From assembly GCA_030280995.1 (NCBI GenBank), contig JASXTE010000014.1, forward strand, positions 29,048,150 to 29,112,149: a DNA stretch of 64,000 nt, read 5' to 3'. This DNA comes from Hemileia vastatrix (taxonomy: Eukaryota > Basidiomycota > Pucciniomycetes > Pucciniales > Zaghouaniaceae). Under the pieces are notes generated by a model. It was not told the origin of the DNA and did no database searches. It was given only the letters and a program-made list of their open reading frames with translations. The position numbers and the translations under genes are program-made. This document shows, piece after piece, positions 11,630 to 50,818 of this stretch (position 1 is its first letter; each line of letters begins with the position of its first letter).

Positions 11630-11677
11630 TCCTCCCTCCAATTGAGAATGTCTGCATTCTTTCTTCATCCAACCACC

Positions 11678-18800: not shown

Positions 18801-19554
18801 TCTTCTCTAATAGCAGCTGGAATTGGAATAGGTTTGATTTGCCAAGGCTCATGACAAACAACAGGAATCAAGTAAGGTTCCTCATTAGAGTGCTTCAATA
18901 CACCCCTTTCCTCCTCAACAAATGCCACCACTTTTTCCCTTAGCACAATAACGTGCAACAACAACTTCTTTTCTTCCTCACCAACCACCCATCAGGACCA
19001 AAATTAACAACTTTCAATCTTTCCACGGTCACCCTAGCCGTCTCTACAAATTCTGGAGGATTCTTCACCAAAGGAGTACAGTACAGATCTCTTGAAAAAG
19101 GAGGTCTCTTCAAAGGCGGATTCAAACCCACAGGCATAAGCTCATTGACAGGCCTAATCTTCTGCGCTACCATCTTATACTTTGCCGCTCCACCTTCAAC
19201 TTGAGGGATCTTCAGGAAATCTTCACTGCCAGACCTGGAACAAAAACCAAGGGTTTCCCCATTTCTCACATGTGTGGCCAAGGTAATGTTTTTGAAAAGT
19301 AAAGAAGAAACCCTAGCGGTGCACAATTGGGAGGACTTACTTTTACACCCCAATCTCACCACTCCAAAACGTTTCCGCAATTCCACATCTTCATCCTCAC
19401 TTCCAACTTCCAAATCTTCAAATCTTGATTCATCTTCTGAATCACATCGTCTAAAATTGTGCAGTTTATCCTCATGCTGGAGGCCCAAAAATTGATCTTG
19501 ATAATCTTCTCTCTTCAAAATTTTCTGCAGTTTAACCTCATGCTGGATGCGAAA
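15849..19554 (-). pseudogene. Element B pol (RT, RNase H, integrase), broken
   Basis: Minus-strand fragments from 19554 down to 15849 cover most of pol. The N-terminal spacer (IQHEVKL, LQHEDKL) is followed by RT (AFAGRVCYGWVI, FIDDGGIKGP near 18370), connection (GFLGVCVYVRIFIKDF), RNase H (YLAVDSSYIAAGAVLS), H2C2 (CEECQRRS) and the integrase core with LDAVH, TVDGGPEFG and AEGMFERGHQV. It ends with WNGTYRVRSQVSGGSYVLEE and FYPRGTRHEED. Two frameshifts lie in the first 1.2 kb. After that the reading frame is constant but has stops at about 18303, 17790, 17211 and 16041. The first codons read straight out of the LTR, so there is no native start. Class I hairpins lie inside the coding sequence near 17390, 17430, 19465 and 19540. 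Confidence 0.85.
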
Positions 19555-20647
19555 TGTAGACAATCCTATAGTGCTAGCTATAGGCCTTGACCAAGGGAGT
19601 TGGAGAAAAACCAGAGAGAAAATCCCCTGTCCCTATAGAAAAATAGAGTGAGATTTACTTGCTAAAGTAAGTTGGTTCCTGTTTTTCTAAAGCCCCTTTT
19701 AAACACACTTGACTGCTTGATGAGCCAAGAAAGTAGTCCCCAGATAGACTACCAGACCAAAGAACTGAAATGTAGAACAAAGTCCACACCAGAGACAGCA
19801 AAGATACTTGATGTAGGCTGCAAATCCACACCAGAGACAGCAATAATACTTGCTATAGCTTTCAAGACTATAACAGAGAAAACAGTTGCTAAAGTTAAGT
19901 TAAATGAAGAACTTACTTGCAACAAACACAGCCAATTGTGGCCAGAAAACAGTGAAAACTGAGTGAGGAACAATGAGATCACCTCCGGATGGTTGTATGA
20001 TGATTAAGGTTGCCCCAAACTGTCTTATTCACTATGTACACACAGACCACTCTCTAAGAGCCCATGCGCACCCACCAATCTGGCACCTGTACCCGCCAAA
20101 TTGCATAAAAAGCCCTCCTAGAGCGCTCCCCAACCTCCTAAAACAGAGGCGGGTGGGCCGCCCGACATCGGAGATGCCGCCTGAAGCGGCCTGGCCTCCC
20201 TGAAGCCGAAGAACCAATAAAAACCACTAATCTACTTAGAAAAATTAGCTACAACTACTAAAACCTTTAAAACATGGAATTTCACTATAACAACTTTGTG
20301 ACATGAAATATAGAGAAAAATTAGCTCTATCCAATGGTACTGAGCACTTAACCCTAAGACTTAAGGTTAGCCCTTAAAACACAAAAAACAAAATTAAACA
20401 GCAATCTTTTATAAATGAAAAATGAGGAAATGACCCCTTAATACTCAGAATATGAAAAATGTCTTCAAAATATAAAATATAGAGAAAAACCAGGGCTATC
20501 CAATGATAGTACCCACATACCCGCAGACCCATTATCCATGGAATAAAAGCAGAAGAATACCCGATTCTTTAGCAGATGTCAATTAAGACATGCCCAAATC
20601 GCGCCAAATCACACAACAAAGGCCCCTGCCAATGTTGGAAGACCACA
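19555..20647 (-). repeat. Element B 5' LTR (in element sense)
   Basis: A full-length partner of 10537-11629. In element sense it ends GGATTGTCTACA and is followed at once by pol sequence (TTTCGCATCCAGCATGAGG) with no primer binding site; element C keeps TGGAGCCCAACTTGGGG at the equivalent position. The right flank CCGT at 20648-20651 completes the target duplication. Confidence 0.9.
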
Positions 20648-31100: not shown

Positions 31101-31788
31101 GTTTTGCATGGCTCAAATATATATAATGGTGTTTTTGTTAGTGAACTGGATTCTCTTAAGATTCATTGGAAGGGAAAGGATGTACCAAAGTTTAAGGACT
31201 GATGTCCTGGAGGGGCTGGTGGTGTTGCTCATGTGTACACTAGAGATTTTGATGATAGTGTTGTACCCTTGGATGTTGTTTTGTTGTATTTTTAAGATGA
31301 GACCCGGGGTCAGACTGGGTTTTATTTTACTATTGTTGAATATCTGTTAACCTTGCAGAGGACAGATATTTGTGATGATTATACTTGAGTTGAAATCATG
31401 AAGAGGAGTCCTGGCTTCTATGTGTCAGGAAGGAAGTTGATGAGGAGGAGAAACACAAATCCTCAAGTGGTGGTAACTCAGAAGAAGGTTCAAGAGTTGG
31501 TTTTGAAGTCTTTGTATGAAGCCCTTGGTCATAGAGGCTTTATAGAGACTTATAGGAGAGTAGCTGATAGATTTTTGTGGTCAGGTAAGAAGTTGGCTGT
31601 GCAGGGTTGGGTTAAATCTTGTGAAGAATTTCAAAGAAGAAGTCACTTGAAACCTAAAGATGTTGGCTGTGCTACTGGTGAAATAACTGTGTTTGGAAGA
31701 GTCAGTCTGGATGCTGTTTATATTAAAGAGTGCAGGTATAAATACTTGATTGTTGCCAGGGATTATTTTTTTGGTTGTGTTGAGGCGG
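28171..31788 (+). pseudogene. Element C pol, left part (RT, RNase H, integrase start), broken
   Basis: After a spacer with an internal duplication (about 28610-28735 repeated at 29045-29170, sharing CCTTTCAAAAACATTACC), RT starts in the frame 29466-30113. Landmarks are SYSSLVFCVKKKSGKLRVVHDLRALNR, LPQGETNSVAVYQAQMAW and FIDDDGIKGPSTDYG. Connection and RNase H lie in 30153-30389 and 30415-31350 (YLEVDSSYIAAGAVLS). The integrase zinc domain is in 31398-31796 (YEALGHRGFIETYRRV, with CEEF in place of CEEC). Element D enters within the integrase core after GCVEA. Class I hairpins recur near 28880 and 28950. Confidence 0.85.
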
Positions 31789-32962
31789 TGTGGTAGCCTA
31801 AAGTTTAGAACGGCACCTAAATAAGTAAATGGAGTTATTACGGCATGCAAGATTGGCGTTATTATTTTTATTTTTTATATATAAAAGTGTTTTATTTAAT
31901 TTATTGGAGTTTAAAATATGAAGAAATTGGTCACGAGCGAATGCCTGCACAAATACAATTTATTTTACGGAGAAAACTTATTTTTACGGTCTGAAAATTT
32001 ATAAGTATCAAGTCGAGTAACTCAAGAACCTTGGGAAATTTTCCCAGAATTTTTACTATTTTTCTTATATTTTTAAATGAATTTTAAAGTTTTATAGAAA
32101 TATTTACGTTTTCAAAAATTACTTAACTTTGGTGAATTTTCACGGGGTAATTAGAGCTGCGCAGACTACGAAAATTAGTTTGGTATGTAAAGGGGAAGTA
32201 GTTCTATTATGTGTAATTTTTCTAGATTTTTTTATTATAGTTTTAAGGTTCTAATTGAGTCCGGAAGTCCGGACGGACTCCGTTTCGACTCCGTACGGAC
32301 TCCGTACGGACTCCGCTTTGACTCCGTACGGACTCTGTTCCGGCTCCGTACAGACTCCGTACGGGCTCCGGATTGACTCTGGAAGAGCTCTGGAGGGGAA
32401 AACTTAGGCACGTGACTGGGAATACTTAAGCGCTTCTCAAACTCGAAATTGAAAGGGGGGACACATCATACAGCTTAATCATTGACCACCACAGTCTCAT
32501 TTTTTATTACTCAACAAATTAAAATAACTTGTAATACCCTTATAACATTATTATTTTTTACATAACATCTTAGAAATACAATTCAACAGTTTAAATAACA
32601 CTTCATACAGGGTATCTTTAGAAAGGTCTTCATCGCTGGGACTTGATTATTGCTGTCTCATAAAAATTGAAATTATTATAAAAACATAAAAGTCAATCTT
32701 TTCAGATCTTTCACTGGTACACCTTAATTGTTGTTATCAGTATTTCTTTATCAACAGCCACGATCATTTAATCTCAATAAGCGTTAATTATTTTAGAGTT
32801 TCATTATTTTTATCAATCAGATCTAAGTAGATTGGTTAGCTTAGTGATTTAGAACACCTACTTTGTTATTTTTATTGGAAGGACGGGGTTTTCAGCTAAA
32901 TCCATATATCTCCTCCGGATTCTGCTTACAGCAAGGCGACTGTAAGAGTTTACCTTACCATA
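31789..32962 (+). repeat. Element D 5' LTR
   Basis: The LTR begins TGTGGTAGCCTAAAG and ends CTTACCATA. The TA rather than CA end is fixed by the GCGG and GTGT target duplications of two independent insertions. It is 1174 bp long. At about 32255-32395 it contains CG-rich tandem ACTCCGTACGG-type units, three to four of them forming the palindrome TCCGTACGGA. The LTR supplies the promoter, although no single TATA box stands out. Confidence 0.9.
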
Positions 32963-32964
32963 GT

Positions 32965-32981
32965 TGGCGCCCAACGTGGGG
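32965..32981 (+). promoter_or_regulatory. Element D primer binding site
   Basis: TGGCGCCCAACGTGGGG starts two bases after the 5' LTR, the expected place and form for a tRNA-primed minus-strand start. Which tRNA is not determined. Confidence 0.85.
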
Positions 32982-33033
32982 TTTGATTTCTCTAGCTTTC
33001 TTTAAAAGACTTACTTGGATCAAGAACGTTATT

Positions 33034-33097
33034 AGCCTGCAAGAGGCTTATTCTCTGGAACTCTAATTGGATTTTTGTTATTGGCCTGCAAGAGGCT
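33034..33097 (+). other. Two leader hairpins of element D
   Basis: AGCCT-GCAAG-AGGCT at 33034-33048 and GGCCT-GCAAG-AGGCT at 33083-33097 (the second with a G-U pair) lie between PBS and the gag ATG. A duplicated short hairpin in a leader is a plausible packaging or dimerisation signal; this is inference. Confidence 0.5.
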
Positions 33098-33139
33098 TGT
33101 TATTTTATCGATTGTTAACGCTTTTCATTACTTATTGGG

Positions 33140-34099
33140 ATGTCTTCTTCTGCTGTTGCTTCTGGATCTTCTAACCCTCTTACTCCCTCAGTTAGAATTG
33201 TTTCTTGGGATGGCCCAAAGTTTGATGGGGAGGAGGTTAAATGGTTCATTAGCAGGTATGAAGCTGCTGCTGCTGTTGATGGTGCTTCCCATGTGGATAT
33301 GGTGAAGCAAGTTAGGTTTTTTATTGCTGATAGGGAGGTGGAAAAAGAGGTTATTGCTATGCAGGCATTCAAAGACAAGGATTGGGTTAAGCTTTCTAAA
33401 GCTATGGTTGATAGATGGGGTGTTAGGTTTACTATGATGGACCTCAATAAAATTGTTGGAGACTGGCAAGCAAAAGGTGGTGTTTCTTCTATGGCTGACT
33501 TCAAAAAGCTCTGTGTTCATTTTGATGAAGTGGTGGAATATCTCATACTGGTGGACGAGTTAGTGCATGAGAACCAAGCAAAAGATTTGTTTTGGTCAGC
33601 ATGCAGCAGGGATATTCGTATGGACGTCTTGAAGGATCTTTCAAGAAAAGATTTGATGAAGGAACTGCCTAATGGTGAGCAGAAACTGCCGGCTCTGGAG
33701 GTTATCAAGGACAACATTCAAGCCCATCTAAAGTTATTGGCGTTGGACAAATATCAAGAGTCATGCACTCAATATGTTAGCAAGGTTAGCGAAGTTTTGG
33801 CCGAAAATAACGATATTATGGTCAAAGCCCAGGAGGCCAAGAAGGCTCAAATGGGATTACCTGCTGCTAAAGTTGAGGGTAATGTAGATAATAAGATGGT
33901 CGATCACCTGGCCGATTTAACTAAACAATTAAAAATATTTGTTCAAGAAACCCAGAAGGCCAATAAGGCCCCAATCGCTTCTTCGTCGACGTCGACTTCT
34001 TATCAGTCTAGAGGTTATGAACGTCGAAATTATAATGGCAATAACAACGGTAACCGCTTCCCAGGCAATGGGAGAAATGGTGGGAATGGTGGTAATTGA
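33140..34099 (+). CDS. gag: Element D Gag, N-terminal 319 residues up to an in-frame UGA
   Basis: Starts at the ATG at 33140, after the leader. Residues about 15-170 form the Gag fold seen also in C (VRIVSWDGPKFDGEEVKWF, VDGASHVDMVKQV, later LFWSACSRDIRMDVL). A Lys/Gln-rich helical part follows (QLKIFVQETQKANKAP), then an Asn/Gly-rich tail. The frame stops at TGA 34097-34099. The next codons in the same frame encode YRGGYDEPKV and then the zinc knuckle, so the stop falls inside what should be one Gag. It may be a TGG to TGA mutation or a readthrough site. Gag forms the particle that packages the RNA in the cytoplasm. Confidence 0.85.
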   Translation: MSSSAVASGSSNPLTPSVRIVSWDGPKFDGEEVKWFISRYEAAAAVDGASHVDMVKQVRFFIADREVEKEVIAMQAFKDKDWVKLSKAMVDRWGVRFTMMDLNKIVGDWQAKGGVSSMADFKKLCVHFDEVVEYLILVDELVHENQAKDLFWSACSRDIRMDVLKDLSRKDLMKELPNGEQKLPALEVIKDNIQAHLKLLALDKYQESCTQYVSKVSEVLAENNDIMVKAQEAKKAQMGLPAAKVEGNVDNKMVDHLADLTKQLKIFVQETQKANKAPIASSSTSTSYQSRGYERRNYNGNNNGNRFPGNGRNGGNGGN

Positions 34100-35749
34100 T
34101 ATAGAGGTGGCTACGATGAGCCAAAGGTTTGCTCCTATTGTAATAGGAGAGGGCACAGAGCAACAGTTTGTTTTGCTCTTGATAAGGATATGGATGCTGG
34201 GCGAGTTTTATTTGATGGTAAAGTTTATAAATTTCCCGATGGTTTGTTCATCAAGCCCAGTGATGGACAGTCTCCTTCTGATTTGTCAAGAAGAAGTTTA
34301 ACGGCTGAAAGGAGAGCCAGATTTGAAGAGGTGACGGATGAAGATGTTAATGCCAGGAGTGGCAAAAATGGTAATGGTAATGGTGGTAAAGCTGACAAGG
34401 GCAAGGAGAAAGAGGTCAGTAAAGCCACATTTTCTACTTCTTTTGGTGGTTTAGAGCTGGCGACGGTTGCCCAGGTGGAGGGTAGCTGTATGGCTGGCGA
34501 ATATGATGTTAATGCTGCTAGAAGAGCAGCTGCTACTAAGGCGAAAAGTAGCATTCAGAGCCAATTGAGGGCTAATCCTGGCAAGGCCAATAACAAAGTG
34601 AACCCTTACTCTAAGGACAAGAATTCTAGTGCTCAAACTGCCGCCAACAAATTGAACCCTTACTCTAAGGACGAATTATATAAAATGCAGAAGGGGATTG
34701 CTGATATGGGGCCCCCTAGTTATGGCAAGTTTGATTTAAATGGTGAGCCTATGCCAGAGGATGATTCGGATTCTGAGGAGGACGTACCGTTGGCGTCTCT
34801 ACCCAGACCAAGTTTTAGCGGTCCCATCCCAATGGAGGGAGTAAGAAGGACTAGCGATGGATCAGGATTAGTGCAAGAAGCTGGTGACGGAGTTAGGGTT
34901 ATAGAACGTGAAGATGTTATAATGGGGGGTGAAGATGGCTCAGTTGGACCTCAAGAGGTACCCAGGGCCAAGGTTGTTAAATCAAAGGTCCAGTATGAGC
35001 GGCCAGTAGTTTCCGGTCAAGCTAATGCGATGGACGCAGTTTTGAATAGGGTGAATCAACTTCAGATTCCCTTATCTTTGGGGGAGTTATTTACGATTAG
35101 TCCGGCACTTTCTGAAAAGCAAAAGAAGCATTTGACGAGGCGTCGGGTTTCCACTGGAGAGGTGGAATATATTTGTGAAAATGCTGAAAAGTTTGGGGAA
35201 GATGTAGATACACATTTTTCCGCTCCCCTGGGTTACCTGGTGGTAACTCTAAATGGTAAAGAAGTAAAGGCCTTGGTCGATTCAGGGTCTCAAATTAATT
35301 TAATTTCATTGGAGCAAGCGACAAGTATAGGCTTGCCAATTAAAAGTGGAACTGGGGGAAACCTCAGAGATATTGGAGGGCATGCAACAGAGCTGATGGG
35401 TACTGCTGAGCATGTCAGGTTAGGCATTGGTGGATCTGTTGGTAAGGTTCACTTCTATGTGGCCAGAGGAGCAGTCAAAACTGTTCTTGGTGGTCCTTTT
35501 TTGATGGATTTTGAGGCCAGGATAGGGTATCAAGCTGGCATGGGGATTAGTTTGGAGATCACTGGTGAAGATATGCGGAGGTTACATATGCGGTTAGCGC
35601 CTCCTGGAGATGAAGGTTGGGAAACACGGCCAGGGATTACTACTCTGTGCCAGTGTTGTGTTTGCACCAAGAAGCGGCATATAAAACGGACGGCTTCTGG
35701 TGAATTATGTTTGTTGGAAAGGGATGAATGCCCTCATTTTTTGGGGTAG
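34100..35749 (+). CDS. Element D Gag zinc knuckle, linker and aspartic protease
   Basis: Open in the gag frame right after the UGA; the first ATG is at 34190. Codons just after the stop give the CCHC knuckle CSYCNRRGHRATVC (CX2CX4HX4C). An acidic, Lys/Gly-rich linker follows, with two NPYSKD repeats and DSDSEEDVPLASLPRP. The protease lies near 35230-35550, with its active site in KALVDSGSQINLIS and the C-terminal half in LGGPFLMDFEARIGYQ. A Cys-rich end (CQCCVCTKKRH) precedes the stop TAG at 35747. If the UGA is not read through, translation would need the 34190 ATG and the knuckle would be lost. Confidence 0.85.
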   Translation, partial: YRGGYDEPKVCSYCNRRGHRATVCFALDKDMDAGRVLFDGKVYKFPDGLFIKPSDGQSPSDLSRRSLTAERRARFEEVTDEDVNARSGKNGNGNGGKADKGKEKEVSKATFSTSFGGLELATVAQVEGSCMAGEYDVNAARRAAATKAKSSIQSQLRANPGKANNKVNPYSKDKNSSAQTAANKLNPYSKDELYKMQKGIADMGPPSYGKFDLNGEPMPEDDSDSEEDVPLASLPRPSFSGPIPMEGVRRTSDGSGLVQEAGDGVRVIEREDVIMGGEDGSVGPQEVPRAKVVKSKVQYERPVVSGQANAMDAVLNRVNQLQIPLSLGELFTISPALSEKQKKHLTRRRVSTGEVEYICENAEKFGEDVDTHFSAPLGYLVVTLNGKEVKALVDSGSQINLISLEQATSIGLPIKSGTGGNLRDIGGHATELMGTAEHVRLGIGGSVGKVHFYVARGAVKTVLGGPFLMDFEARIGYQAGMGISLEITGEDMRRLHMRLAPPGDEGWETRPGITTLCQCCVCTKKRHIKRTASGELCLLERDECPHFLG

Positions 35750-38700
35750 CAGGGGCTGACCGCTCTAATGTTGTAATCTCTCCTCAGGATGAGATCCCGG
35801 ATTGCAATAGGTCAGCTCACTTGGAGATAATTCAAGTGGATTCTCAATTATTTTCTGTTAATATTACTTTGGAGTGCAAATACGTTTTGGACTTTTCTAT
35901 ATGTTTATTGGATTTACCCGGTTTTTCTATTAAATTTAAAAACGGTGAAAAAGGCAAAATGGGCCAAATTAGGTTGGATAAAAATTGGAAGGGTATGTTT
36001 TGTGACCTCCAGCAAGAGGTTAAACTGCAATTATCTCCTTCTATTTCGGACCTCCAGCAAGAGGGTAAACTGCAAAAATTACATCAAAACTCTATTAAAA
36101 ATCTCAGTATAAGTAAAACACAAAAAAATAACTTATGTGAAAATGTTATTCGGGGCCTCCAGCAAGAGGTTAAACTGAAATTATCTCCTTCTATTTTAGA
36201 CCTCCAGCAAGAGGTTAAACTGCAGTTATCTCCTTCTATTTTGGGCCTCCAGCAAGAGGTTAAACTGCAATTATCTCCTTCTATTTTGGGCCTCCAGCAA
36301 GAGGTTAAACTGCAATTATCTCCTTCTATTTTGGGCCTCCAGCAAGAGGTTAAACTGCAATTATCTCCTTCTATTTTGGACCTCCAGCAAGAGGGTAAAA
36401 TGCAATTATCTCATCAAAATCAAATAAAAAATCTCGGTATAATTAAAACACAAAAAAATAATTTTTGTGAAAATTCAATTCCGGTTCTCCAGCAAGAGGT
36501 TAAACTGCCAACTTTCTTTACGGGTGATTTACTGTTGGATAAGGGAAGCAAAGGTGTCGGAAAATCTGTTTATAAATTAGACGAGGGAAAGGAGAAAAGG
36601 GTAAAATTTAAAAATGAAATAAAATATTTTTCTAATTTTTCTTATTCCGATTCTGGCGATGAAGAAGATTCATTTGATGAAAGTTTAAATGGCGATACAA
36701 AAGAAAATGTTTTACCTCAAGTTAATTTAGATGTGGACGCAGCCAAATATAAGAAAGTAGCAAATAAAGTTCGACCTATTAATGAACCGCTACCTGCTGA
36801 ATTAAATCCACCTTTGAGAAGACCAAGGTTATCAAGAGATCCTTATGAAAGTCCCTTGGTAAAGAATCCGCCTGAATTTTCTGAGACGTCAAGAATCACT
36901 TTTGAGAGACTGGGTGTTGTTAATTTTGGACCTGATGGTTGGTTGTCTGGAGAAGAGAAGAAGTTGTTGTTGGATGTGATGGTCAAGCGAGAGAAGGACA
37001 TTGCTTTTGTAGAAGAGGAGAGGGGTGTGTTGAAGCATTCCTATGGGGAGCCTTACAAGATTCCTGTGGTATGTCATGAACCGTGGCAGCAGAAACCGAT
37101 TCCTATTCCAGCTGCATTGAAAGAAGCTTATATCGAAGTTGTCAGAGAACGGATACGCACTGGACTGTATGAGCAATCAACGTCAAGTTATTCTAGTCCT
37201 GTATTTTGTATCAAGAAACCGAATGGCAAGCTTAGAGTTGTTCATGATCTTAGGGAATTAAATAGGGTTACAATAAAGGATGCTGGGATACCGCCTAGTG
37301 CTGAGGAGTTTGTTGAAGCATTTGCAGGGAGAGTGTGCTATGGTTTGGGAGATATTATGGGTGGATATGATGAGAGAGAGTTACATCCGGACTCAAGGCC
37401 TCTCACTACATTTGATACGCCACTTGGACGTTTACAGTTAACAAGATTACCTCAAGGAGCAACAAATTCGGTTGCAGTTTATCAAGCTCAGATGGCTTGG
37501 ATCCTTCAAGATGAAATTCCACAATATTCTGGAATATTTATAGATGATGGAGGAATTAAGGGACCAACAACCGACTATGATAACCAGGTGTTGGAAGAGA
37601 ATCCCGGGATACGCAAATTCATTTGGGAGTTTGCAATTACTTTAGAAAGAATCTTGTTTCGAATTGAAGAGGCTGGTTTAACTATTTCAGGTTCAAAATT
37701 TTCATGTTGTGTGCCAGCCTTAGAAATATTAGGCCATGTGGTATGTAGAGAGGGTAGGATTATGTCCAAGAAGAAAGTTAACAAAATTCAGTCCTGGCCA
37801 AGACCCAAGAATACGACCGAAGTTAGAGGGTTTTTAGGCGTTTGCGTATATGTTAGAATGTTTATCAAGGACTTTTCTTCATTGGCAGCTCCATTGAGAC
37901 GGTTAACGAGAAAGGATGCAGACTGGGAGTGGGATGAAGAGTGTGAGAAGGCGTTTGTGAAGTTGAAGGAGGTTGTGGGGAAGGATTTAGTCCTGAACAA
38001 GTTAGATTATGGAAAAGATGCTGGTAGAATTTATTTAGCAGTTGATTCAAGTCAGGTTGCAGCTGGGGCGGTTTTGTCTCAGATGGATAAAGCTGGTTAC
38101 ATCAGGCCAGTTAGGTATGAATCTGTAGTATTTACTGAGGTTGAATCAAGATATTCTCAACCAAAATTGGAATTATGTGGTGTGGCAAAAATACTGAAGA
38201 AACTTCAGCATATTTTGTGGGGGCAACATTTTGAGTTGCAAGTGGATGCGAAATCGTTAATCCAGATGATTAATTCCCCAAGTTTACCGAACGCACCCAT
38301 GACGAGATGGGTAGCTTTTATTCAACATTTTTCGTTTGATTTAGTTCATAAGCCTGGCAAGACTTTTACTATGCCAGATGGTTTATCAAGGAGACCACCC
38401 ACTGAAGAAGATTCAGACTCAGAAGAGTTCGATGAAGATATACCTATTATCAAAGCCAGCACTAAAGGAGCTGAAGACTTTCCATACCTCCCCCATGAGG
38501 TTAAACTGGCAGGGCTATTGTGTTTAGATTATGATGATGATGACCTCCACCAAGAGGATAAACTGGAAAATAGTTTTTATGTTAATAAAGGTGTTGAAAA
38601 AGGTGTAGATAAATTCGGCAGAGAGGAGGTAGAAGAAGATGTGGTGTATGTAGAGGAAAATGGATTGGTAGTGTGGGATAGTAGTAAATTAAGGAATGGT

Positions 38701-40200
38701 GTATATGTTGGAGAATTAGAGAATTTAAATAAAAAGGTGGATAAAGAGAAAGAGGTATTTTCAAATACGGTTTTCGAAGGATCCAAAGGTTCAGAAGAAA
38801 AACGTCAACATAGCTCGATTAAAGATTTATTTAGGGGTCAACGATTATTGGCTCATTCATGTGCAGGTGATATTGGTGATAGAGAAGTCCCTATTGATGT
38901 TATATTAATCGATTTTCAAGATGAAGTCTGGGGTCAGACTGGTTTTTATTTTTTGTTAGTCAAATATTTGTTGACTTTAGAGAGGCCAGAAGATTGTGAA
39001 GACGATGAATGGGTGGCTATCAAGAGGAAGTCATCTACGTTTTACCTATCTGGTCGACGTTTAATGAGGAGAAGGTATCCAAATCCTCAAGTAGTTATAA
39101 CTCAACAGAAGGGGCAAGAATTAGTTTTGAAATCACTGCATGAAGATCTTGGGCATAGAGGCGTTGGAGAAACATTTAGAAGAATTTCTGATCGATTTTG
39201 GTGGCCTGGCATGAAGATGGCTGTTAAACAGTGGGTTCAGTCATGCGAAGAATGTCAAAGACGAAGTTATTTAAGGCCAAAAGAACCTGGACGCGCGACC
39301 GGTGAATATACGCTCTTTGGAAGAGTTAGTTTAGATGCTGTTCATATGAAAGAGGGACGGTATAAATATTTAATTGTGGCCAGAGATGATTTATCTGGTT
39401 GGGTAGAGGCAGCGCCTCTTATTAATTTAACTGCCAAAAATGTGGCAGAATTTTTTTTGAATAATTGGGTATATAGGTATGGGGTGATGAAGTTGGTGAC
39501 GGTAGATGGAGGTCCTGAATTTGGGACAGAGTTTAAAGAGGCCGTATTGAAAGTTGGATCAAAGGTTAGGGTAGCAACCCCATATTATCCTGAAGCTGAA
39601 GGCATGGTTGAAAGAGGGCATCAAGTTATTAAGGATGCTTTAGTTAAAATGTGTGGGACAAGTGCTGAAAAGTGGAGGCACTATTTACCTTTAGTTTTAT
39701 TTGCTGATCGAATCACTGCCAAAAGGACAACCGGATTTTCACCTTATGAACTTGTTTTTGGACAGAAAGCAGTTTTACCGGTTGATTTAGAAGCTGAATC
39801 ATATCTTGGAGTTGACTGGGATACGGTCAAAACTACTGAAGAATTATTGTGTGCAAGAATGATGCAGCTAGAAAAGAAAGAAGAATATTTAGAAAAGGCA
39901 TATTCGCGGATGATGAAGATCCGAAATCAATCAGTTAGATATTGGGATGAGCGGTTGGCACATCGATTAAGGAAACCTTTGAACCCGGGAGATATGGTCC
40001 TGGTGTATAATAGGAGTTTGGAAAGTCAGTGGGGAAAAATGTTTGCAGATAGGTGGAATGGACCGTATAAAATCAAGGAGCAAGTTTCCGGCGGTTCATA
40101 TGTGCTAGAAGAGTTGGATGGAGTAGTATTGAAGAAGAGGGTAGCGGCCGATCAAGTGAACCGGTTCTATCCTAGAGGCACCAGGAGTGCCGAAGTCTAA
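35728..40200 (+). CDS. pol: Element D Pol: RT, RNase H and integrase (1490 residues)
   Basis: An uninterrupted frame, -1 relative to protease. Residues 1-260 are a spacer with repeated LQQEVKLQLSPSIL units. RT covers about 450-660 (SYSSPVFCIKKPNGKLRVVHDL, LPQGATNSVAVYQAQMAW, catalytic FIDDGGIKGP at about 602), then the connection with GFLGVCVYVRMFIKDF. RNase H is at about 760-890 (YLAVDSSQVAAGAVLS, VESRYSQPKLELCGVA, PDGLSRRPP). The integrase has H2C2 (HEDLGHRG ... CEEC) near 1136-1175, Asp in SLDAVH (about 1201), Asp in TVDGGPEFG (about 1258), Glu in EGMVERG (about 1293) and a GPY-type tail (WNGPYKIKEQVSGGSYV), ending FYPRGTRSAEV. All catalytic residues are present. Confidence 0.95.
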   Translation: MPSFFGVAGADRSNVVISPQDEIPDCNRSAHLEIIQVDSQLFSVNITLECKYVLDFSICLLDLPGFSIKFKNGEKGKMGQIRLDKNWKGMFCDLQQEVKLQLSPSISDLQQEGKLQKLHQNSIKNLSISKTQKNNLCENVIRGLQQEVKLKLSPSILDLQQEVKLQLSPSILGLQQEVKLQLSPSILGLQQEVKLQLSPSILGLQQEVKLQLSPSILDLQQEGKMQLSHQNQIKNLGIIKTQKNNFCENSIPVLQQEVKLPTFFTGDLLLDKGSKGVGKSVYKLDEGKEKRVKFKNEIKYFSNFSYSDSGDEEDSFDESLNGDTKENVLPQVNLDVDAAKYKKVANKVRPINEPLPAELNPPLRRPRLSRDPYESPLVKNPPEFSETSRITFERLGVVNFGPDGWLSGEEKKLLLDVMVKREKDIAFVEEERGVLKHSYGEPYKIPVVCHEPWQQKPIPIPAALKEAYIEVVRERIRTGLYEQSTSSYSSPVFCIKKPNGKLRVVHDLRELNRVTIKDAGIPPSAEEFVEAFAGRVCYGLGDIMGGYDERELHPDSRPLTTFDTPLGRLQLTRLPQGATNSVAVYQAQMAWILQDEIPQYSGIFIDDGGIKGPTTDYDNQVLEENPGIRKFIWEFAITLERILFRIEEAGLTISGSKFSCCVPALEILGHVVCREGRIMSKKKVNKIQSWPRPKNTTEVRGFLGVCVYVRMFIKDFSSLAAPLRRLTRKDADWEWDEECEKAFVKLKEVVGKDLVLNKLDYGKDAGRIYLAVDSSQVAAGAVLSQMDKAGYIRPVRYESVVFTEVESRYSQPKLELCGVAKILKKLQHILWGQHFELQVDAKSLIQMINSPSLPNAPMTRWVAFIQHFSFDLVHKPGKTFTMPDGLSRRPPTEEDSDSEEFDEDIPIIKASTKGAEDFPYLPHEVKLAGLLCLDYDDDDLHQEDKLENSFYVNKGVEKGVDKFGREEVEEDVVYVEENGLVVWDSSKLRNGVYVGELENLNKKVDKEKEVFSNTVFEGSKGSEEKRQHSSIKDLFRGQRLLAHSCAGDIGDREVPIDVILIDFQDEVWGQTGFYFLLVKYLLTLERPEDCEDDEWVAIKRKSSTFYLSGRRLMRRRYPNPQVVITQQKGQELVLKSLHEDLGHRGVGETFRRISDRFWWPGMKMAVKQWVQSCEECQRRSYLRPKEPGRATGEYTLFGRVSLDAVHMKEGRYKYLIVARDDLSGWVEAAPLINLTAKNVAEFFLNNWVYRYGVMKLVTVDGGPEFGTEFKEAVLKVGSKVRVATPYYPEAEGMVERGHQVIKDALVKMCGTSAEKWRHYLPLVLFADRITAKRTTGFSPYELVFGQKAVLPVDLEAESYLGVDWDTVKTTEELLCARMMQLEKKEEYLEKAYSRMMKIRNQSVRYWDERLAHRLRKPLNPGDMVLVYNRSLESQWGKMFADRWNGPYKIKEQVSGGSYVLEELDGVVLKKRVAADQVNRFYPRGTRSAEV
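35737..35743 (+). promoter_or_regulatory. Candidate -1 frameshift site between protease and RT
   Basis: In the gag-protease frame the codons read CAT TTT TTG GGG TAG. T TTT TTG fits the X XXY YYZ pattern for a -1 slip, the next frame (pol) is -1, and the upstream stop is only four bases further on. A downstream ATG-independent fusion of protease and pol would result. The alternative is internal initiation at the ATG at 35728. Confidence 0.6.
36006..36507 (+). repeat. Tandem 45-bp repeats in pol, each carrying a class I hairpin
   Basis: CCTC-CAGCAA-GAGG followed by TTAAACTG starts at 36006, 36051, 36156, 36201, 36246, 36291, 36336, 36381 and 36486. The spacing is exactly 45 bp within each run. 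Each unit encodes LQQEVKLQLSPSIL(D/G). The copy at 36486 begins TCTC, still pairing with GAGG through one wobble. Two further copies in pol lie at 38487 (loop CCCCAT) and 38544 (loop CACCAA). Confidence 0.9.
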
Positions 40201-40612
40201 CTCCGAAATGAGGATAAACTACAATTTTAATGACTTTTATTAAATTTATGGATTCCTCCGCAATGAGGATAAACTATGATATCTACGAAATTTTATGGAT
40301 TCCTCCGCAATGAGGATAAACTATGATATCAATGAAACTTTATGGATTCCTCCGCAATGAGGATAAACTATGAAATTTCTTAAATTTTATCAACTCCGAA
40401 ATGAGGGTAAACTACAATTTTAATGACATTTATCAAATTTTATAGATTCCTCCGCAATGAGGATAAACTATGATATCAACAAAATTTTATGGAATCCTCC
40501 GCAATGAGGATAAACTATGATATCAACAAAATTTTATGGAATCCTCCGTAATGAGGATAAACTATGATATTGATGAAATTTTATGGATACCTCCGCAACG
40601 AGGATAAACTAT
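40201..40612 (+). repeat. Class I hairpin array 1, element D 3' region
   Basis: Nine units of about 45-55 bp start directly at the pol stop codon. Seven have CCTC-CGCAAT-GAGG or a one-base variant followed by ATAAACTA; two have the variant ACTCCGAAATGAGG. Between units lies AT-rich filler with TTTTATGGATT. No open frame is present. The same motif is found at the pol stop in B, C and F. Confidence 0.9.
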
Positions 40613-41280
40613 CTTCTTTTTTTTATCAAATAATTTACTATCGTTACACTGCATATGGGCAACGAAACTGTGACGAAACTTAACGAAATGCAAGAAGACC
40701 TTCTTTGAAATTTTCAAAAACTTAAAATACTTAAAATATGGGTGAAGATAGTGTTGGAAAATTTTAAAATTTATTGGAAGAAGTGTTCACAGGGGAACCT
40801 TCTTAATTAAATATTGGCAAGTGTGGGGGTAATTGATGGGCTGGCTGCTCTATACACAATTACCCCATAATGTTCGTTTCCAAAATTTTCCCTGTTTCTA
40901 GTTGAATCCTGGCTTTGTCTTTTAATTTTAGGAAGTCCACTAAGACTATAAACTGGAACGAATCAAGAGACACCGCTCTCAACGCCAGATTCAAGATTTT
41001 CTTATTTTGTTTTTGATTTTTTTTATGTTAGATTGTGATTTCTTTTCTTTAATATATATTATGAATTATTGTAAAGGTGATGCTCACTGGTGGTCTCTAA
41101 TCATTTTTATAAATTGGAGGGAGCCCACCCAGTGATCATCATTATAAAAAATTATCTGCTAAAAACTTTCATTTATTTTCTTTTCTTTTCAATTTCTTAA
41201 AATTGTGTAACCACATCAAGTTGCACTTGGATGTGGGTATGATGTCGAGGGTACGGCTCATCAAATGGCCGGGGGGCATC
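40613..41280 (+). other. Element D 3' noncoding region with class II and III hairpins
   Basis: At 40826-40866 GGGGTAATTG pairs with CAATTACCCC around GGGCTGGCTGCTC (class II). A class I unit (AGTC-CACTAA-GACT, then ATAAACTGG) lies near 40926-40950. At 41211-41236 CCACATCAAG faces CTTGGATGTGG (class III), followed by GATG...CATC enclosing GGCTCATCAAATGGC. The same order of parts is seen in B and F in their own sense. The remaining sequence is AT-rich and noncoding. Confidence 0.75.
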
Positions 41281-41640
41281 TTTTAAAATTTTATTAAAAA
41301 AAAATTTTTTTTTAGTACTTTTTTTTATCTTTCTTTTCACATTCATTTATCTTTCTTTAAAATTAAATTTTAACTTTTATTTCAAAACTATCTTTTCTAA
41401 AATCTTTTATTTTAAATTTAAAAAAAAAATAAATAAATAAATAAAAAAAAAAAAAAATAAAAAATTCAAATTAAAAAAAAAAATAAAAAAAAAATAATAA
41501 AATAAAATAAAAATAAAATAAATAAATAATAAAAAAAAAATAATAATAATAAAAAAAAAAAAAATTTAAAAAAAAAAATTAAAATTAAAATTAATTAATT
41601 AAATCAAAATTATTATTATATTTCTAAGTTTTATTTTTTT
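41281..41640. repeat. A/T low-complexity run in element D
   Basis: Long stretches of A with occasional T (AAATAAATAAATAAA type) and AATAATAATAAAA runs. The same place in B and F is also A-rich. No other content is seen. Confidence 0.85.
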
Positions 41641-41738
41641 TAGTTTTCATTCTATTAGTTTTATTCATTTAGTTTAGACAGGAAACAGGGTCTAGGAGAA
41701 CTCGATACCAATGGGATTTTACTTCAAGATATATGTTT

Positions 41739-42124
41739 AGTCCTCCAAGACTTTAAACTGGCTACTGTTCAAGACTTTCTTTAAGGTTCTTATACGTATT
41801 TTGGATCTGTTAGTCCTCCAAGACTTTAAACTGGCTACTGTTCAAGACTTTCCTTAAAGGTTTTATACATATTTTGGAGCTGTTAGTCCTCCAAGACTTT
41901 AAACTGGCTACTTTTCAAGACATTCTTTAAGTTTTTTTTTTTACACGTATCTTGGATCTTTTAGTCCTCCAAGACTTTAAACTGGCTACTGTTCAAGACT
42001 TTCCTTAAGGGTTTTATACGAATTATGGAGCTGTTAGTCCTCCAAGACTTTAAACTGGCTAATTTTCAAGACTCTCATTAAAGATTTTATATTGGAGCTG
42101 TTAGTCCTTCAAGACTTTAAACTG
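41739..42124 (+). repeat. Class I hairpin array 2, element D
   Basis: Six units of about 70-75 bp start at 41739. The hairpin is AGTC-CTCCAA-GACT followed by TTAAACTGG; the last copy has loop CTTCAA. The stem differs from array 1 (AGTC/GACT instead of CCTC/GAGG), yet pairing, loop length and the TAAACTGG tail are kept. Filler includes TTCAAGACTTTCCTTAAGG. Confidence 0.9.
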
Positions 42125-42195
42125 AATTTCAAGGATGATTAAGATTTTATGGATATTTTTGGAGACGGATTTTTTTTTATATAAATCAAATGTTA

Positions 42196-42703
42196 GGTCC
42201 ACCAAGACCTTAAACTGGAGTGTTATCAAATGTTAGGTCCACCAAGACCTTAAACTGGACTATTATCAAGTGTTGGGTCCACCATGACCTTAAACTGGAT
42301 TTCTTATCGATTAAATGTTTGGTCCACCATGACTTTAAACTGGTAGTTCATTCATTGTTTAGTCCACTATGACTTTAAACTGGAAAATTAATATCTGAAG
42401 GATAATTCAACATTCATTGGACCACTATGGCCTTATACTGGATTACTTGTCGATCAAATGTTTGGTCCACTATGACATTAAACTGGATTATCAAATTTAT
42501 TCAATCTTTGGTCAAGCCTAGGCCTTACTTAGGAATTTATCAAGTTATTTATGCACCTAAACGATCTTTGGTCCACTAAGACCATAAACTGGCAATCGAT
42601 TATATGTTTGGTCCACCAAGACTTTAAACTGGAATGTCAATCTTGTTTGGATAACTCAATTCAATCTTTTAATTTATCACTGTCCACTAAGACTTTAAAC
42701 TGG
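42196..42703 (+). repeat. Class I hairpin array 3, element D
   Basis: About eleven units with stem GGTC/GACC or its variants, loops CACCAA, CACCAT, CACTAA and CACTAT, then TTAAACTGG or ATAAACTGG. Some copies pair GGTC with GACT through a wobble or use AGTC/GACT; two are degenerate (near 42416 and 42509). No coding potential is convincing in the open frame 42551-42760. Confidence 0.88.
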
Positions 42704-43293
42704 TTATTCAATTATTTCTGGAATTGGGTGCTGATAAGCTTTAGGAGGTTAAAATTTTAGGTGGTAATGATGCTAAAGAAAGCATAATGGTTAATTAGGT
42801 GAAATTTGTGGCGCTTTAACATGGTCTAAAGTTGAAATTATTATTGGAAGCCTGGCAAAAGTATTTTATGGGTTTGCTGTATAGCAAAGTTTGAAAATTG
42901 TGATGAAGGAATCAGAAGTTAGGATGGTAGTTGGATTTTAGGGAATGATTCTTTTTTAGTGCCTCATAGTTAGGCCATTTTTTTTGGTGTGAAGCTTGGA
43001 GGACCTTATGGCGAGATTGGAATCATAGAATTCGGCTCAGTGGGGGGCCCTATGAGGTTGGAATCAGGAGTATTCGGCTCATAGGAAGATCCACTCTCTC
43101 AATGCTGTGACAAGAAGGAAGACTGGTATATGGGAGTCTGAAGGGATTCAAACCTTGCTCTCAGTAGTGGAATCATCACAAGATTTATATTATTTTATTT
43201 TATGTTATATCAAGCCAGAGAAGAAAGAAAACATCATTTATGTTGAAAGTTTAAGAAGACCAAGCAAAAACAAAATTTTATCAAGTTATACTG

Positions 43294-43986
43294 TTAGAAA
43301 AGATAATTTCTTTGAAATTGTTCAACTTCATTATCAAAGCTTTGCATTAAAATTCTTCTTTTCATGAGGTCTTCATGGTTATTAGCTGGAGTTTCTTGAA
43401 AATAGGCCAGCATTTTTCGTTTCAACTCATTAGTAAAGTCAAGAAAAAGATAGCGATGAAAATTTGGGTAATGATTGATATAGTCCGTCTTCACTCTACC
43501 AACATCATCAGTGTTGGTTATTTCGACAGCTAGAAGTTCAAATCTGTTATTAAGTCATAGGTTTAGTCAATTTTGATTAAATGTTTTTTTTAGTAAGATA
43601 AATAGGGTCTTACATTTAGAGTCAGGAAACATAGTCTCAGCAAAGTTAGTTGGGGGTACTGGCGTTATAGGATTAGGATCTTGTGAAGGCAAAATTAGGC
43701 CGGGATCCGTTGATGAAGATTGAACTTTTGAAGCTGTTTTTGATCTTATTCGTTTTAAGAAGACAGGAATTTTGGATCGCTTTTTAGAAGTTGAGGGATC
43801 AGGGAGAGCTGCTGGTCCTAAATATACGTTTGTTTTAGAAGGAACTATTTGCCGGTTGCATTTGAATTTTTTTACACGGCATAAGTCGCAAGCTGTCCTG
43901 CCAGGAAGATTAGGATTGGACATTAAACAAGGTACCTGGTATTGAGCGCAGAGTTCACATGGAGCGACAAGTTCTTTGGAAGACAT
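43294..43986 (-). CDS. Antisense gene of element D: zinc-cluster-like protein, probably spliced
   Basis: On the strand opposite to pol, near the 3' LTR. Exon 1 (43986-43614) starts with ATG and encodes CELC, VPC, then CDLCRVKKFKC, the pattern C-x2-C-x6-C-x13-C-x2-C-x6-C, resembling half of a fungal Zn2Cys6 cluster. A Ser/Pro-rich, basic middle follows (RSKIPVFLKRIRSK). A likely intron is 43613-43530 (GTAAGA ... TTCTAG, 84 nt). Exon 2 (43529-43294) continues in frame with a helical domain (LKRKMLAYFQETPANN, MKRRILMQSFDNEVEQF) matching antisense gene 1 of B and F. The spliced product is about 202 residues. The function is unknown; nuclear nucleic-acid binding is only inferred. Confidence 0.65.
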
Positions 43987-44099
43987 ATTGATGAAGATGA
44001 ATTTTATAGTTGATTAAAGAAGATGGTGGTTGAAGGTTAAAGATGAATATTGTGTTCAACCACTTATGCAAAGTTTTAAGAATGGGGACATTCTCGATT

Positions 44100-44109
44100 G
44101 GAGGGAGGA
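44100..44109 (+). promoter_or_regulatory. Element D polypurine tract
   Basis: GGAGGGAGGA lies immediately before the 3' LTR start TGTGG, the usual place for the plus-strand primer. The antisense gene's start codon is about 115 bp to the left, so the leader of that gene passes through this tract. Confidence 0.85.
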
Positions 44110-45252
44110 TGTGGTAGCCTAAAGTTTAGTACGGCACCTAAATAAGTAAATGGAGTTATTACGGCATGCAAGATTGGCGTTATTATTTTTATTTTTTATA
44201 TATAAAAGGGTTTTATTTAATTTATTGGAGTTTAAAATATGAAGAAATTGGTCACGAGCGAATGCCTACACAAATACAATTTATTTTACGGAGAAAACTT
44301 ATTTTTACGGTCCGAAAAATTTATAAGTATCAAGTCAAGTCACTCAAGAACCTTGGGAAATTTTCCCAGAATTTTTACTATTTTTCTTATATTTTTAAAA
44401 TGAATTTTAAAGTTTTATAGAAATATTTACGTTTTCAGAAATTACTTAACTTTGATGAATTTTCACGGGGTAATTAGAGCTGCGCAGACTACGAAAATTA
44501 GTTTGGTATGTAAAGGGGAAGTAGTTCTATTATGTGTAATTTTTCTAGATTTTTTTATTATAGTTTTAAGGTTCTAATTGAGTCCGGAAGTCCGGACGGA
44601 CTCCGCTTTGACTCCGTACGGACTCCGTTCCGGCTCCGTACGGACTCCGTACGGGCTCCGGATTGACTCTGGAAGAGCTCTGGAGGGGAAAACTTAGGCA
44701 CGTGACTGGGAATACTTAAGCGCTTCTCAAACTCGAAATTGAAAGGGGGGACACATCATACAGCTTAATCATTGACCACCACAGTCTCATTTTTTATTAC
44801 TCAACAAATTAAAATAACTTGTAATACCCTTATAACATTATTATTTTTTACATAACATCTTAGAAATACAATTCAACAGTTTAAATAACACTTCATACAG
44901 GGTATCTTTAGAAAGGTCTTCATTGCTGGGACTTGATTATTGCTGTCTCATAAAAATTAAAATTATTATAAAAACATAAAAGTCAATCTTTTCAGATCTT
45001 TCACTGGTACACCTTAATTGTTGTTATCAGTATTTCTTTATCAACAGCCACGATCATTTAATCTCAATAAGCGTTAATTATTTTAGAGTTTCATTATTTT
45101 TATCAATCAGATCTAAGTAGATTGGTTAGCTTAGTGATTTAGAACACCTACTTTGTTATTTTTATTGGAAGGATGGGGTTTTCAGCTAAATCCATATATC
45201 TCCTCCGGATTCTGCTTACAGCAAGGCGACTGTAAGAGTTTACCTTACCATA
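44110..45252 (+). repeat. Element D 3' LTR
   Basis: 1143 bp, from TGTGGTAGCC to CTTACCATA. By eye it differs from the 5' LTR at only a small number of bases, mostly transitions, and by a shorter ACTCCGTACGG repeat block (about 44580-44680). It is followed by GCGG and then the rest of element C's integrase. Confidence 0.92.
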
Positions 45253-46041
45253 GCGGGGCCTCTTGTTAATTTGACTTCCAAAAATGTGGCAGAACTTTTG
45301 AATAAGGAATTGGTGTTTAGGTATGGGTTGATGAAGTTGGTGACTGTTGATGGTGGGCCAGAGTTTTGAGCTGAATTAAAAAAGGCAGTGACAAGTATTG
45401 GTTTTAAAGTCAGAGTGGCTAAACCTTATTATCCTGAAGCTGAAGACATGTTTGAAAGAGGCTATCAAGTTATCAAGAATGCTTTGGTTAGAATGTGTGG
45501 AGATAGTGCTAAACTAGAGGCATTATTTATCCTTGGTGATATTTGCTGATAAGGTCACTGTGAAAAGGACAACTGTCTATTCCCCTTATGAATTAATTTT
45601 TGGGAAGAAAGCTGTTCTACCAGTGGATTTGGAAGCTGTCTTTTATCTTGGAATTGATTGGGATGATGTGTGCTCAACAGAAGATTTGCTCTGTGCCAGG
45701 ATGCAACAGTTGGAATGTAGAGAGCAATTGCAAGAGAAGGCATACTCTAGAATGATGAAGATAAGAAATCAATCTGTCAGATACTGGGACAAGAAGTTGG
45801 CTGATTGACTCAGGAATTCTTTTAAACATAGTTGTTTGGTTTTGGTGTATAATAGAAGTTTGGAGAGTCAGTGGAAAAAATGTTTTCTGACAGATGGAAT
45901 GGACCTTACAGAGTCAGATCATAGGTGACTGGAGGCTCTTATGTTTTGAAGGAGTTAGATGGTGCAGTCTTTACAAAGAGATTGGCTGCTGATCAGAAGA
46001 ACAGATTTTAACCAAGAGGCACTAGAAGTGAAGAAGATTAA
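45253..46041 (+). pseudogene. Element C pol, right part (integrase end), broken
   Basis: Continues the integrase interrupted at 31788: LTSKNVAELLNKE, TVDGGPEF followed by a stop, YYPEAEDMFERGYQV, then the frame 45533-45808 with YSPYELIFGKKAVLPVD and NQSVRYWDKKLAD. The end (VTGGSYVLKELDGAV, PRGTRSEED) runs to TAA at 46039-46041. Several stops and one frameshift break it. Confidence 0.85.
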
Positions 46042-46768
46042 CTCCTTAATGAGGATTAACTATGGACCATTCTTTCATTTTTGATTTTGATGATGCTGTG
46101 AATATGTTTTGTTGGTAACTTTTTTAGAAGGTACCATTGGGTGGGGCTTCTAGATTTTATTTTGGCAAGCGTGGGGGTAACTGGTGAGCTGCCTGCTCTG
46201 TAGAACAGTTACAACAGATTGTCTGTTTCCAACCACTTCCCTTATTTTTTTTGAATCATAGCATTGTTTTGTCTTCACAGGTTTTAGTTCTCAATGAATT
46301 TAAACTGGCTATTCTTTTGGTCTTCAAGTGCTAAACTCTTCACACTTATTAGTTTTGGTTTGTTTTTTTGGATGTTGTGTTTTTTTAGAAGGTACCCAGG
46401 GGGGGCTTTTAAATTTTATTTTGGCAAGTGTGGGGGTAACTGATGAGCTGGCTTCTCTGTAGAACTGTTACCCTATAATGTCTGTTTTAAGTTTTTGTTT
46501 GTCCTAATTAAATCCTAGTTCTGGTTTTTTTTATTCAGGTTTTAAGTGCATCAAGACTTCAAACTGATCACTGTAGTCAGTTCATCCAGACTGTAAACTG
46601 AAAAATGGTGCAGTCCCCCAAGACTATAAACTTAGGATTGTTTCATGGTTGAGACCTTCAGGACTATAAACTGAAAATGTGGTGTTGGTCTAATTCTGGA
46701 AGAGTAGAATGAGATGTTTTTGTTGATAAGAGTCCTGTTGGAATTTGTCTTTATGGTGGGCAATCAAT
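46042..46768 (+). other. Element C 3' noncoding region, left part
   Basis: It begins with a class I motif at the pol stop (CTTAATGAGGATTAACTATG). Two class II hairpins follow at about 46174-46214 (degenerate) and 46433-46474 (GGGGTAACTG with a weakened partner). Class I copies with AGTC-CCCCAA-GACT then ATAAACT lie near 46610. The class III hairpins and antisense gene 2 found in B and F are absent, indicating a deletion. AATCAAT at 46762-46768 is repeated at 52672-52678, across element E. Confidence 0.75.
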
Positions 46769-50752: not shown

Positions 50753-50818
50753 ATGGGAAGTTGCGCCTGAATCAAGAATATAACATGTGGTATTCTCCTT
50801 TAATCCTGCTAAATATGT

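Follow-up and report, generated by a model that had tools for sequence, protein, structure and literature searches.

Why would a retrotransposon carry dozens of copies of a short inverted repeat whose stem letters change from array to array while the two arms still match? This question is raised by a 64,000-nucleotide stretch of the Hemileia vastatrix genome (assembly GCA_030280995.1, contig JASXTE010000014.1, positions 29,048,150 to 29,112,149 of the forward strand; hereafter the window), in which a 13.5 kb Ty3-type long terminal repeat (LTR) element, at 31789-45252 on the + strand, holds several arrays of such a unit. A preliminary description of the window had read the unit as a hairpin with changing but compensated stems. 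Our analysis suggests that it is probably a compact H-type pseudoknot, with a 4-bp stem, a 3-bp stem and an A-rich crossing loop. As a 23-nt RNA module of the sense strand it would form stem 1 from four pairs (NNTC/GANN) around the six-base loop CNNYAW and stem 2 from three pairs between loop bases 3-5 and the TG[N] that follows TAAAC; stem 1 would be crossed by the A-rich strand WTAAAC, and stem 2 by the CN that opens the loop. For its function we tentatively propose recognition of the element's own RNA.

Units were defined by the core NNTC-CNNYAW-GANN-N-TAAACT with at most two mismatches, unless stated otherwise. The carrier holds 36 of them, and two clearly degenerate relatives, recognized by eye near 42424 and 42512, bring the total to the approximately 38 reported previously. 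They are spread over the protease-reverse transcriptase (RT) spacer (9), the RNase H-integrase spacer (2), the region from the pol stop (9) and the farther 3' noncoding sequence (1 + 6 + 9):

36006..36508, + strand: array of 9 units in the protease-RT spacer of pol; CCTC/GAGG (one TCTC), loop CAGCAA, tail TGC (8) or TGA (1)
38487..38509, + strand: unit in the RNase H-integrase spacer; CCTC/GAGG, loop CCCCAT, tail TGG
38544..38566, + strand: unit in the RNase H-integrase spacer; CCTC/GAGG, loop CACCAA, tail TGG
40200..40612, + strand: divergent array of 9 units at the pol stop; CCTC or ACTC/GAGG, loop CGNAAT (one CGCAAC), tail CTA, without the second helix
40934..40956, + strand: lone unit; AGTC/GACT, loop CACTAA, tail TGG
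41739..42125, + strand: array of 6 AGTC/GACT units; in the sixth (CTTCAA...TGA) a second-helix pair is U-A, compensated, instead of C-G
42196..42703, + strand: array of 9 strict and 2 degenerate units; GGTC/GACC drifting to GGTC/GACT and AGTC/GACT

All four stem-1 pairs are present in 32 of the 36 units. The nine units at 36006..36508 lie in a single reading frame, LQQExK(L/M), and the outermost pair is absent from two of the nine strict units at 42196..42703. The CCTC, AGTC and GGTC stems are found where the preliminary description had placed them, and its other particulars hold in part. The copies are not confined to one retrotransposon, as three further element regions of the window contain them, some on the - strand. 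The stems do change, but mainly in their outer two pairs, the inner two being almost always TC/GA. The tail, given as WTAAACTGG, reads CTGG in just 17 of 36 units, with CTGC (7), ATGC (1) or CTGA (1) at 36006-36508 and CTA at 40200-40612. Units of the latter array also depart from the loop CNNYAW, and two of its nine lack the outer stem pair; the array at 40255-40612, previously counted as a member, agrees with the motif in neither loop nor tail and has no second helix.

In stem 1 the inner pairs are near-fixed as U-A and C-G; the first outer pair occurs as A-U, C-G, G-C and sometimes G-U, and the second as G-C or C-G. Changes were compared with a null in which columns evolve independently, simulated 120 times on a tree of 285 distinct units built from the flanks and untested columns, a tree that rests on short flanks and is poor at depth. 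Outer pair 1 co-changed 14 times and kept pairing in 11 (null 0.7), and outer pair 2 co-changed 13 times and kept pairing in 12 (null 1.1), with none of the 120 simulations as high in either case. Pair contrasts (threshold 0.5) gave, for outer pair 1, 28 double changes that keep pairing against 1 that breaks it. The earlier proposal that the stems change with their pairing kept has thus withstood a phylogenetic null, and array-wise descent does not suffice as the sole source of the covariation.

The same proposal held that a folded shape is selected; pairing is indeed kept, but the shape appears to be more than a hairpin, because the loop also covaries with the tail in a second helix that had been missed. 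Loop bases 3-5 complement the three bases after TAAAC in the combinations CCA/TGG, CUA/TGG, GCA/TGC and UCA/TGA. In a mutual-information scan, loop position 3 with tail position 22 (L3-T22) was the top coupling apart from stem 1 and the neighbouring flank columns 23-24. On the tree, L3-T22 shows 9 pairing-keeping double changes (null 0.9) and L4-T21 shows 5 (null 0.7), again with 0 of 120 simulations as high, whereas six control column pairs gave only 0-2. A test of all seven pairs of the pseudoknot used 57 of 76 cluster representatives, 19 being left out, and 500 shuffles. Paired cells amounted to 91.0% compared to 75.5% after shuffling, covariation was 0.416 compared to 0.152 (0 of 500 as high), and sliding the partner reduced pairing to 20-36%. 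A full stem 2 is found in 44 of the 76 clusters (22.3 +/- 2.7 expected; 0 of 2000 as high) and in 19 of 31 coarser clusters (8.8 expected); two lower clustering thresholds yielded 1 and 3 clusters and were uninformative. Genome counts at L3-T22, not corrected for relatedness, are T-A 11,016, T-C 147 and G-G 197. Loop position 3 is G in 18 of 100 among the matches listed for the core, and in 171 exact-core copies, likewise uncorrected, a G there is accompanied at tail position 22 by C in 21, A in 3, T in 1 and G in none.

Per-column change in 142 pairs of related units adds an outline to this picture. Flanks change at about 0.4-0.6, the fixed core at 0.01-0.12 and the outer stem-1 positions at 0.13-0.27; in the tail the values are 0.18 at T21, 0.34 at T22, 0.53 at T23 and 0.50 at T24, and at loop position 2, which the model leaves unpaired, the value of 0.46 is at the flank rate. 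These rates indicate that conservation starts and stops with the proposed pseudoknot; as the core columns served to select the units, only unselected columns count as evidence here. As judged from the alignments, what defines the H-type class, a loop that pairs with the 3' flank and two helices that both covary, is supported, though weakly in the pair contrasts, and is absent from the 40200-40612 class.

A number of observations weigh against a pseudoknot. Nested folding gave stem 1 alone, at -1.9 to -4.5 kcal/mol, in six of seven units, and the seventh favoured a different fold. Within the carrier all three stem-2 pairs occur in just 26 of 36 units and both stems are complete in 24 of 36. On the tree some control pairs co-change in excess, in combinations that do not keep pairing, and L2-T23, unpaired in the model, has 4 pairing-keeping changes (null 1.0). 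In the seven-pair test neither the double-change pairs (4, compared to 3.8 shuffled) nor the pair types (16, compared to 13.7; 32 of 500 shuffles as high) stand out. In a large class with loop CCCCAA and tail TGAGG, C stands opposite A at L3-T22, an arrangement seen in 31 of the 171 exact-core copies, 22 of those being CCCCAA...TGAGG. This class could pair only with a bulged A (C2-G24, C3-G23, C4-G21), and among nested folds a rival CCC-GGG fold is best for it. Parsimony at L3-T22 counts 11 changes to C-A and 6 to G-U, the wrong direction for RNA; at L4-T21 the counts are 15 to G-U and 4 to C-A. Pair contrasts (threshold 0.5) at L3-T22 gave 8 double changes that keep pairing, 9 that do not and 55 singles that break it, and a second such analysis gave p values of 0.03-0.25 for stem 2 with some control columns equally strong; these contrasts have little power for stem 2, and the tree-based test was relied on instead. 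Finally, the units at 40200-40612 and their relatives elsewhere have a loop that mostly ends in AAT, a tail CTA and no stem 2, often with an A-G opposition in stem 1. The loops of this post-pol array, CGCAAT, CGAAAT and CGTAAT, are of the GNAA type, and the array is perhaps a second structural class.

The abundance of the unit is far from what chance would yield. The window contains 45, 62 and 72 matches at 0, 1 and 2 mismatches, compared to means of 0, 0.2 and 3.1 in 40 dinucleotide-preserving shuffles. Over the genome (747.6 Mb) the 20-base core TCCNNYAWGANNNTAAACTG has 53,390 + 53,293 = 106,683 exact matches, about one copy per 7 kb, compared to 7 + 3 = 10 for the reversed core; on both counts chance is excluded. 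To this we added 33 stretches of the same genome, L001-L008 (3 kb) and L009-L033 (10 kb), a sample enriched for element-rich places since an early genome search, with the parts of the motif in a wrong order, supplied L001-L008 and guided the choice of 20 others. Five 10 kb stretches were placed arbitrarily; two contain units at one mismatch or fewer (15 in L029, 1 in L033), and the other three contain none at that threshold. The window and the 33 stretches together hold 261 units at this threshold, 258 of which have a gag or pol match within 4 kb, and 248 of these 258 share the strand of the nearest match. Of the ten discordant units, three are in the window (12401-12460) and have as their nearest match one at 8124-9059, beyond the bounds of the element to which they belong; the other seven form one array in L020. 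Two stretches, L022 and L032, have only distant RT matches (about 26-27% identity) and no units; from these two the module seems to be tied to a single clade.

Could the unit be something simpler than a pseudoknot, or not a structured RNA at all? A plain 4-bp hairpin with a conserved, single-stranded WTAAACTGN tail might be bound by a host or element protein with stem 2 unformed, the match of loop and tail then reflecting protein contacts and lineage. The 40200-40612 class, in which stem 2 is absent but the 3' half and TAAACTA are kept, would suit this explanation, as would the shortness of stem 2 (just 3 bp), the out-of-register CCCC/TGAGG class and the weak stem-2 contrasts. It does not predict that L3-T22 and L4-T21 co-change in pairing combinations beyond the tree null when the control pairs do not, nor the outcome of the seven-pair test, and we regard it as unlikely. 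Three unrelated or hitch-hiking repeats, functionless, duplicated in tandem and paired by descent, would agree with the close relationship of copies within arrays and with the rarity of change among closely matched pairs. However, the compensated changes exceed the tree null, the unselected stem columns change at 0.13-0.27 compared to about 0.4-0.6 in the flanks and at loop position 2, and 106,683 core copies would have to be explained, so that this very improbable account is largely refuted already.

Selection on a peptide, LxxExKL, with the noncoding copies as by-products, draws on the observation that 34 of 37 units in stop-free frames 150 codons or longer, many of them close relatives, use frame 1 and encode [LIV]xxExK(L/M), TAA being a stop in frame 0. 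Yet the TAA of the core partly dictates the frame, or else the frame is common by descent, and 25 of the 36 carrier units lie at or past the pol stop, with all of the carrier's AGTC and GGTC stems noncoding; we give this explanation hardly any credence. A DNA dyad, whose inverted half-sites a dimeric protein would read in an enhancer, silencer or insulator array, has a model in the insulator-type binding-site array of Drosophila gypsy, and a dimer site would also show a gapped palindrome with co-changing half-sites. In a duplex, however, mismatched half-sites are equivalent, and the genome holds 5,287 copies of GGTC..GACT (G-U as RNA) compared to 257 of AGTC..GACC (A-C as RNA), a count dominated by two inherited positions. 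Among the matches listed, the loop is CACCAA or CACCAT, the forms present at 42610 and 42321, in 93 of 100 GGTC..GACT copies, and the A-C copies are scattered; since the 93 are probably inherited, the comparison is one of about two fixed G-U states with no fixed A-C state. Stem-1 parsimony gives 23 changes to G-U and 11 to A-C. The dyad would also leave the sense orientation and an asymmetric tail that covaries with the loop unexplained, and the carrier's LTRs contain no unit at up to two mismatches, all of which makes it improbable. Because of the G-U/A-C asymmetry, the sense orientation and the loop-tail pairing, RNA is favoured over DNA as the form in which the module acts, though not proven; the preliminary description had allowed either RNA or single-stranded DNA.

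A further indication comes from relatives that lack pol. TR-GAG elements are defined by LTRs and gag without pol. In the sampled stretch L021 (3106-9064, - strand) we found a 6 kb LTR element with a gag open reading frame (ORF), LTRs 93.4% identical and a target-site duplication ACGT; L014 (up to 6517), on another contig, is 91% identical to it over 4.9 kb. Neither has a listed match to RT or integrase, and both copies (2/2), homologous on two contigs, agree with the TR-GAG definition, mobility included. The papers listed on TR-GAG elements concern plants; the L021/L014 family resembles them in having LTRs and gag without pol and additionally keeps its modules, 23 in L021 and 20 in L014. A solo-LTR-like relative of this family lies at 56133-57034 of the window. 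Where pol is lost while gag and the modules are kept, a cis-acting RNA function would be expected, and the retention points to one; that gag in particular is kept at most suggests Gag as the module's partner. Against such a partnership, the translation examined of the L021 and L014 gag ORFs contains no zinc knuckle, so that Gag, if it binds, would have to use another domain, or the helper's Gag would do so.

Our preferred reading, a proposal to which we give somewhat less than an even chance, is that the pseudoknot module serves multivalent recognition of genomic RNA for packaging. Tens of modules over the pol spacers and the 3' noncoding region would turn the genomic RNA into a multivalent ligand, whose partner would be the element's Gag or a host protein working with Gag. 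Binding would gather full-length RNA and package it into particles, and the non-autonomous relatives with gag and modules would use the particles and reverse transcriptase of autonomous elements. Modules so placed would account for dispersed, redundant packaging requirements here. The main rival, which we consider rather doubtful, has the same sense-strand RNA module serve nuclear export, stability or translation of unspliced element RNA, in the manner of a constitutive transport element or a 3' pseudoknot domain. The structural evidence fits it equally; three of the five blocks and the single unit lie past the pol stop in the 3' noncoding region, and pol-less elements likewise need export and gag translation. 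On the other hand, ribosomes would run through the translated copies in the pol spacers (36006-36508, 38487-38566), and a single export or stability element seldom needs about 36 copies.

The element that carries the arrays is a Ty3/Gypsy LTR retrotransposon, as its LTRs and the Pfam order of protease, RT, RNase H and integrase show. Its parts, and the related elements of the window, are:

31789-45252, + strand: 13.5 kb Ty3-type LTR element, carrier of the motif arrays
31789..32962, + strand: 5' LTR, beginning TGTGGTAGCC, 95.9% identical to the 3' LTR (self-comparison)
32965..32981, + strand: primer-binding-site-like TGGCGCCCAACGTGGGG, read directly after the 5' LTR
33140..34099, + strand: gag ORF of 319 amino acids, ending at TGA, without a match in a Pfam search
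34190..35749, + strand: ORF with aspartic protease (Pfam Asp_protease_2, 4.5e-9)
35728..40200, + strand: pol ORF with RT, RNase H and integrase (Pfam RVT_1, RT_RNaseH and Integrase_H2C2 above cut-off)
44100..44109, + strand: polypurine tract GGAGGGAGGA, read adjoining the 3' LTR
44110..45252, + strand: 3' LTR (self-comparison and sequence)
10537..20647, - strand: second related element, LTRs 10537-11629 and 19555-20647, 96.6% identical
28879..46677, + strand: related element split by the carrier's insertion; units at 28879, 30983, 31019 and within 46041-46677 (several degenerate)
60399..63590, - strand: third related element, sharing 85% identity with 10.5-16.0 kb; units near 60399-60857, 63308 and 63568

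The primer-binding role of TGGCGCCCAACGTGGGG is one that we presume from LTR elements generally. The integrase core itself scores below the curated cut-off (Pfam rve, 2.1e-6). A 4-bp target-site duplication, GCGG, flanks the carrier (31785-31788 and 45253-45256). Self-comparison shows the carrier nested inside a related element, of which pieces are found at about 28.6-31.8 and 45.3-46.6 kb. The second related element has units at about 12379-12881, 15302, 15578, 15828, 17385-17441 and 19462-19549, and on both strands the related elements carry units in places similar to the carrier's. The Copia-type element at 46785-52672, with ends 98.4% identical and likely young, contains no unit with four stem pairs.

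Other features of the locus may be of interest in their own right. A CCHC zinc knuckle, CSYCNRRGHRATVC, is encoded at about 34130-34171, in frame past the gag TGA (window 34097-34171), as if reached by stop-codon readthrough or as if this copy had decayed. The protease and pol ORFs overlap by 22 bases (35728-35749) in a -1 relation at the T-run CATTTTTTGGGG, a possible frameshift site. A role of the modules in stimulating frameshifting was considered and rejected, as no unit lies near this overlap and the first, at 36006, is 257 nt downstream. The LTRs and a third LTR copy hold tandem palindromic 11-mers, TCCGTACGGAC, at 32268-32370, 44591-44660 and 53448-53517, and the 3' noncoding sequence that runs from the unit at 40934 to the AGTC array contains an A-rich low-complexity run (41420-41594).

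How does the module compare with known systems? An Rfam 15 search of 30000-46000 with E up to 1 returned two matches, both far below gathering (22 compared to 42, and 21.9 compared to 60). The compact fold class is shared with H-type pseudoknots of luteoviruses and poleroviruses (beet western yellows, sugarcane yellow leaf), whose stems and loops are of comparable length and include an A-rich loop. Those act as single frameshift stimulators by a slippery site, whereas each element here has about 36 copies, most of them noncoding, and the first carrier unit lies well past the ORF overlap rather than a few nucleotides downstream of a slippery heptamer; common ancestry is not suggested. Tandem arrays of plant Ogre-type elements lie in the 3' noncoding region. 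Like the arrays described here they sit inside Ty3-type elements, but in the accessible parts of the source (PMC7004042) they are studied as satellite seeds without mention of a shared structured unit, whereas here one structured unit recurs at several places, coding regions included. Ty1 and Ty3 likewise offer cis-acting RNA structure in an LTR element. According to the available passages, yeast Ty3 needs its untranslated regions and/or POL for RNA localization and packaging (PMC11381356, PMC4974528), regions that match those where the modules sit here, and its packaging signals are 'not precisely defined' (PMC11381356); in Ty1, Gag makes contact with the pseudoknot, although no role of this structure in packaging could be demonstrated (PMC4974528, PMC11381356). 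The Ty1 structure is a single long-range 5' pseudoknot, whereas the present module is reiterated; the passages on Ty1 and Ty3 mention no reiterated module, and 'tandem' is absent from the main text of PMC11381356. Among the papers listed in searches of the accessible literature on retrotransposon tandem repeats with hairpins or pseudoknots and on rust-fungus and Ogre elements, none describes such a module in its title or opening abstract lines, and 'tandem', 'hairpin' and 'motif' do not occur in the main text of a 2025 paper on rust-fungus transposable elements (PMC12210899). The fold class and the notion of cis RNA signals are already known.

Ty3/Gypsy elements are a very common kind of retrotransposon, and the module bears on how they may recognize their own RNA. 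The module described here may be the tag by which the element's particles know their own RNA. Being short, countable, covarying and present in autonomous and pol-less members alike, it is a concrete candidate, testable by mutation, and it also provides a sequence handle for annotating this Ty3 clade. Within the carrier the stem type follows position, with CCTC in or just past the coding parts and AGTC, then GGTC, toward the 3' end. A bolder proposal, possible but on balance doubtful, is that the mini-pseudoknot is a molecular barcode of the whole Ty3 clade, dozens per RNA nucleating condensation of Gag or of a host protein. If this were true, it would be, to our knowledge, the first defined multivalent recognition code for Ty3/Gypsy genomic RNA, and a very abundant structured RNA motif of the host genome, with more than 100,000 copies; differences between positions in the base pairs of both stems could then let sub-families and pol-less parasites share particles or avoid each other's.

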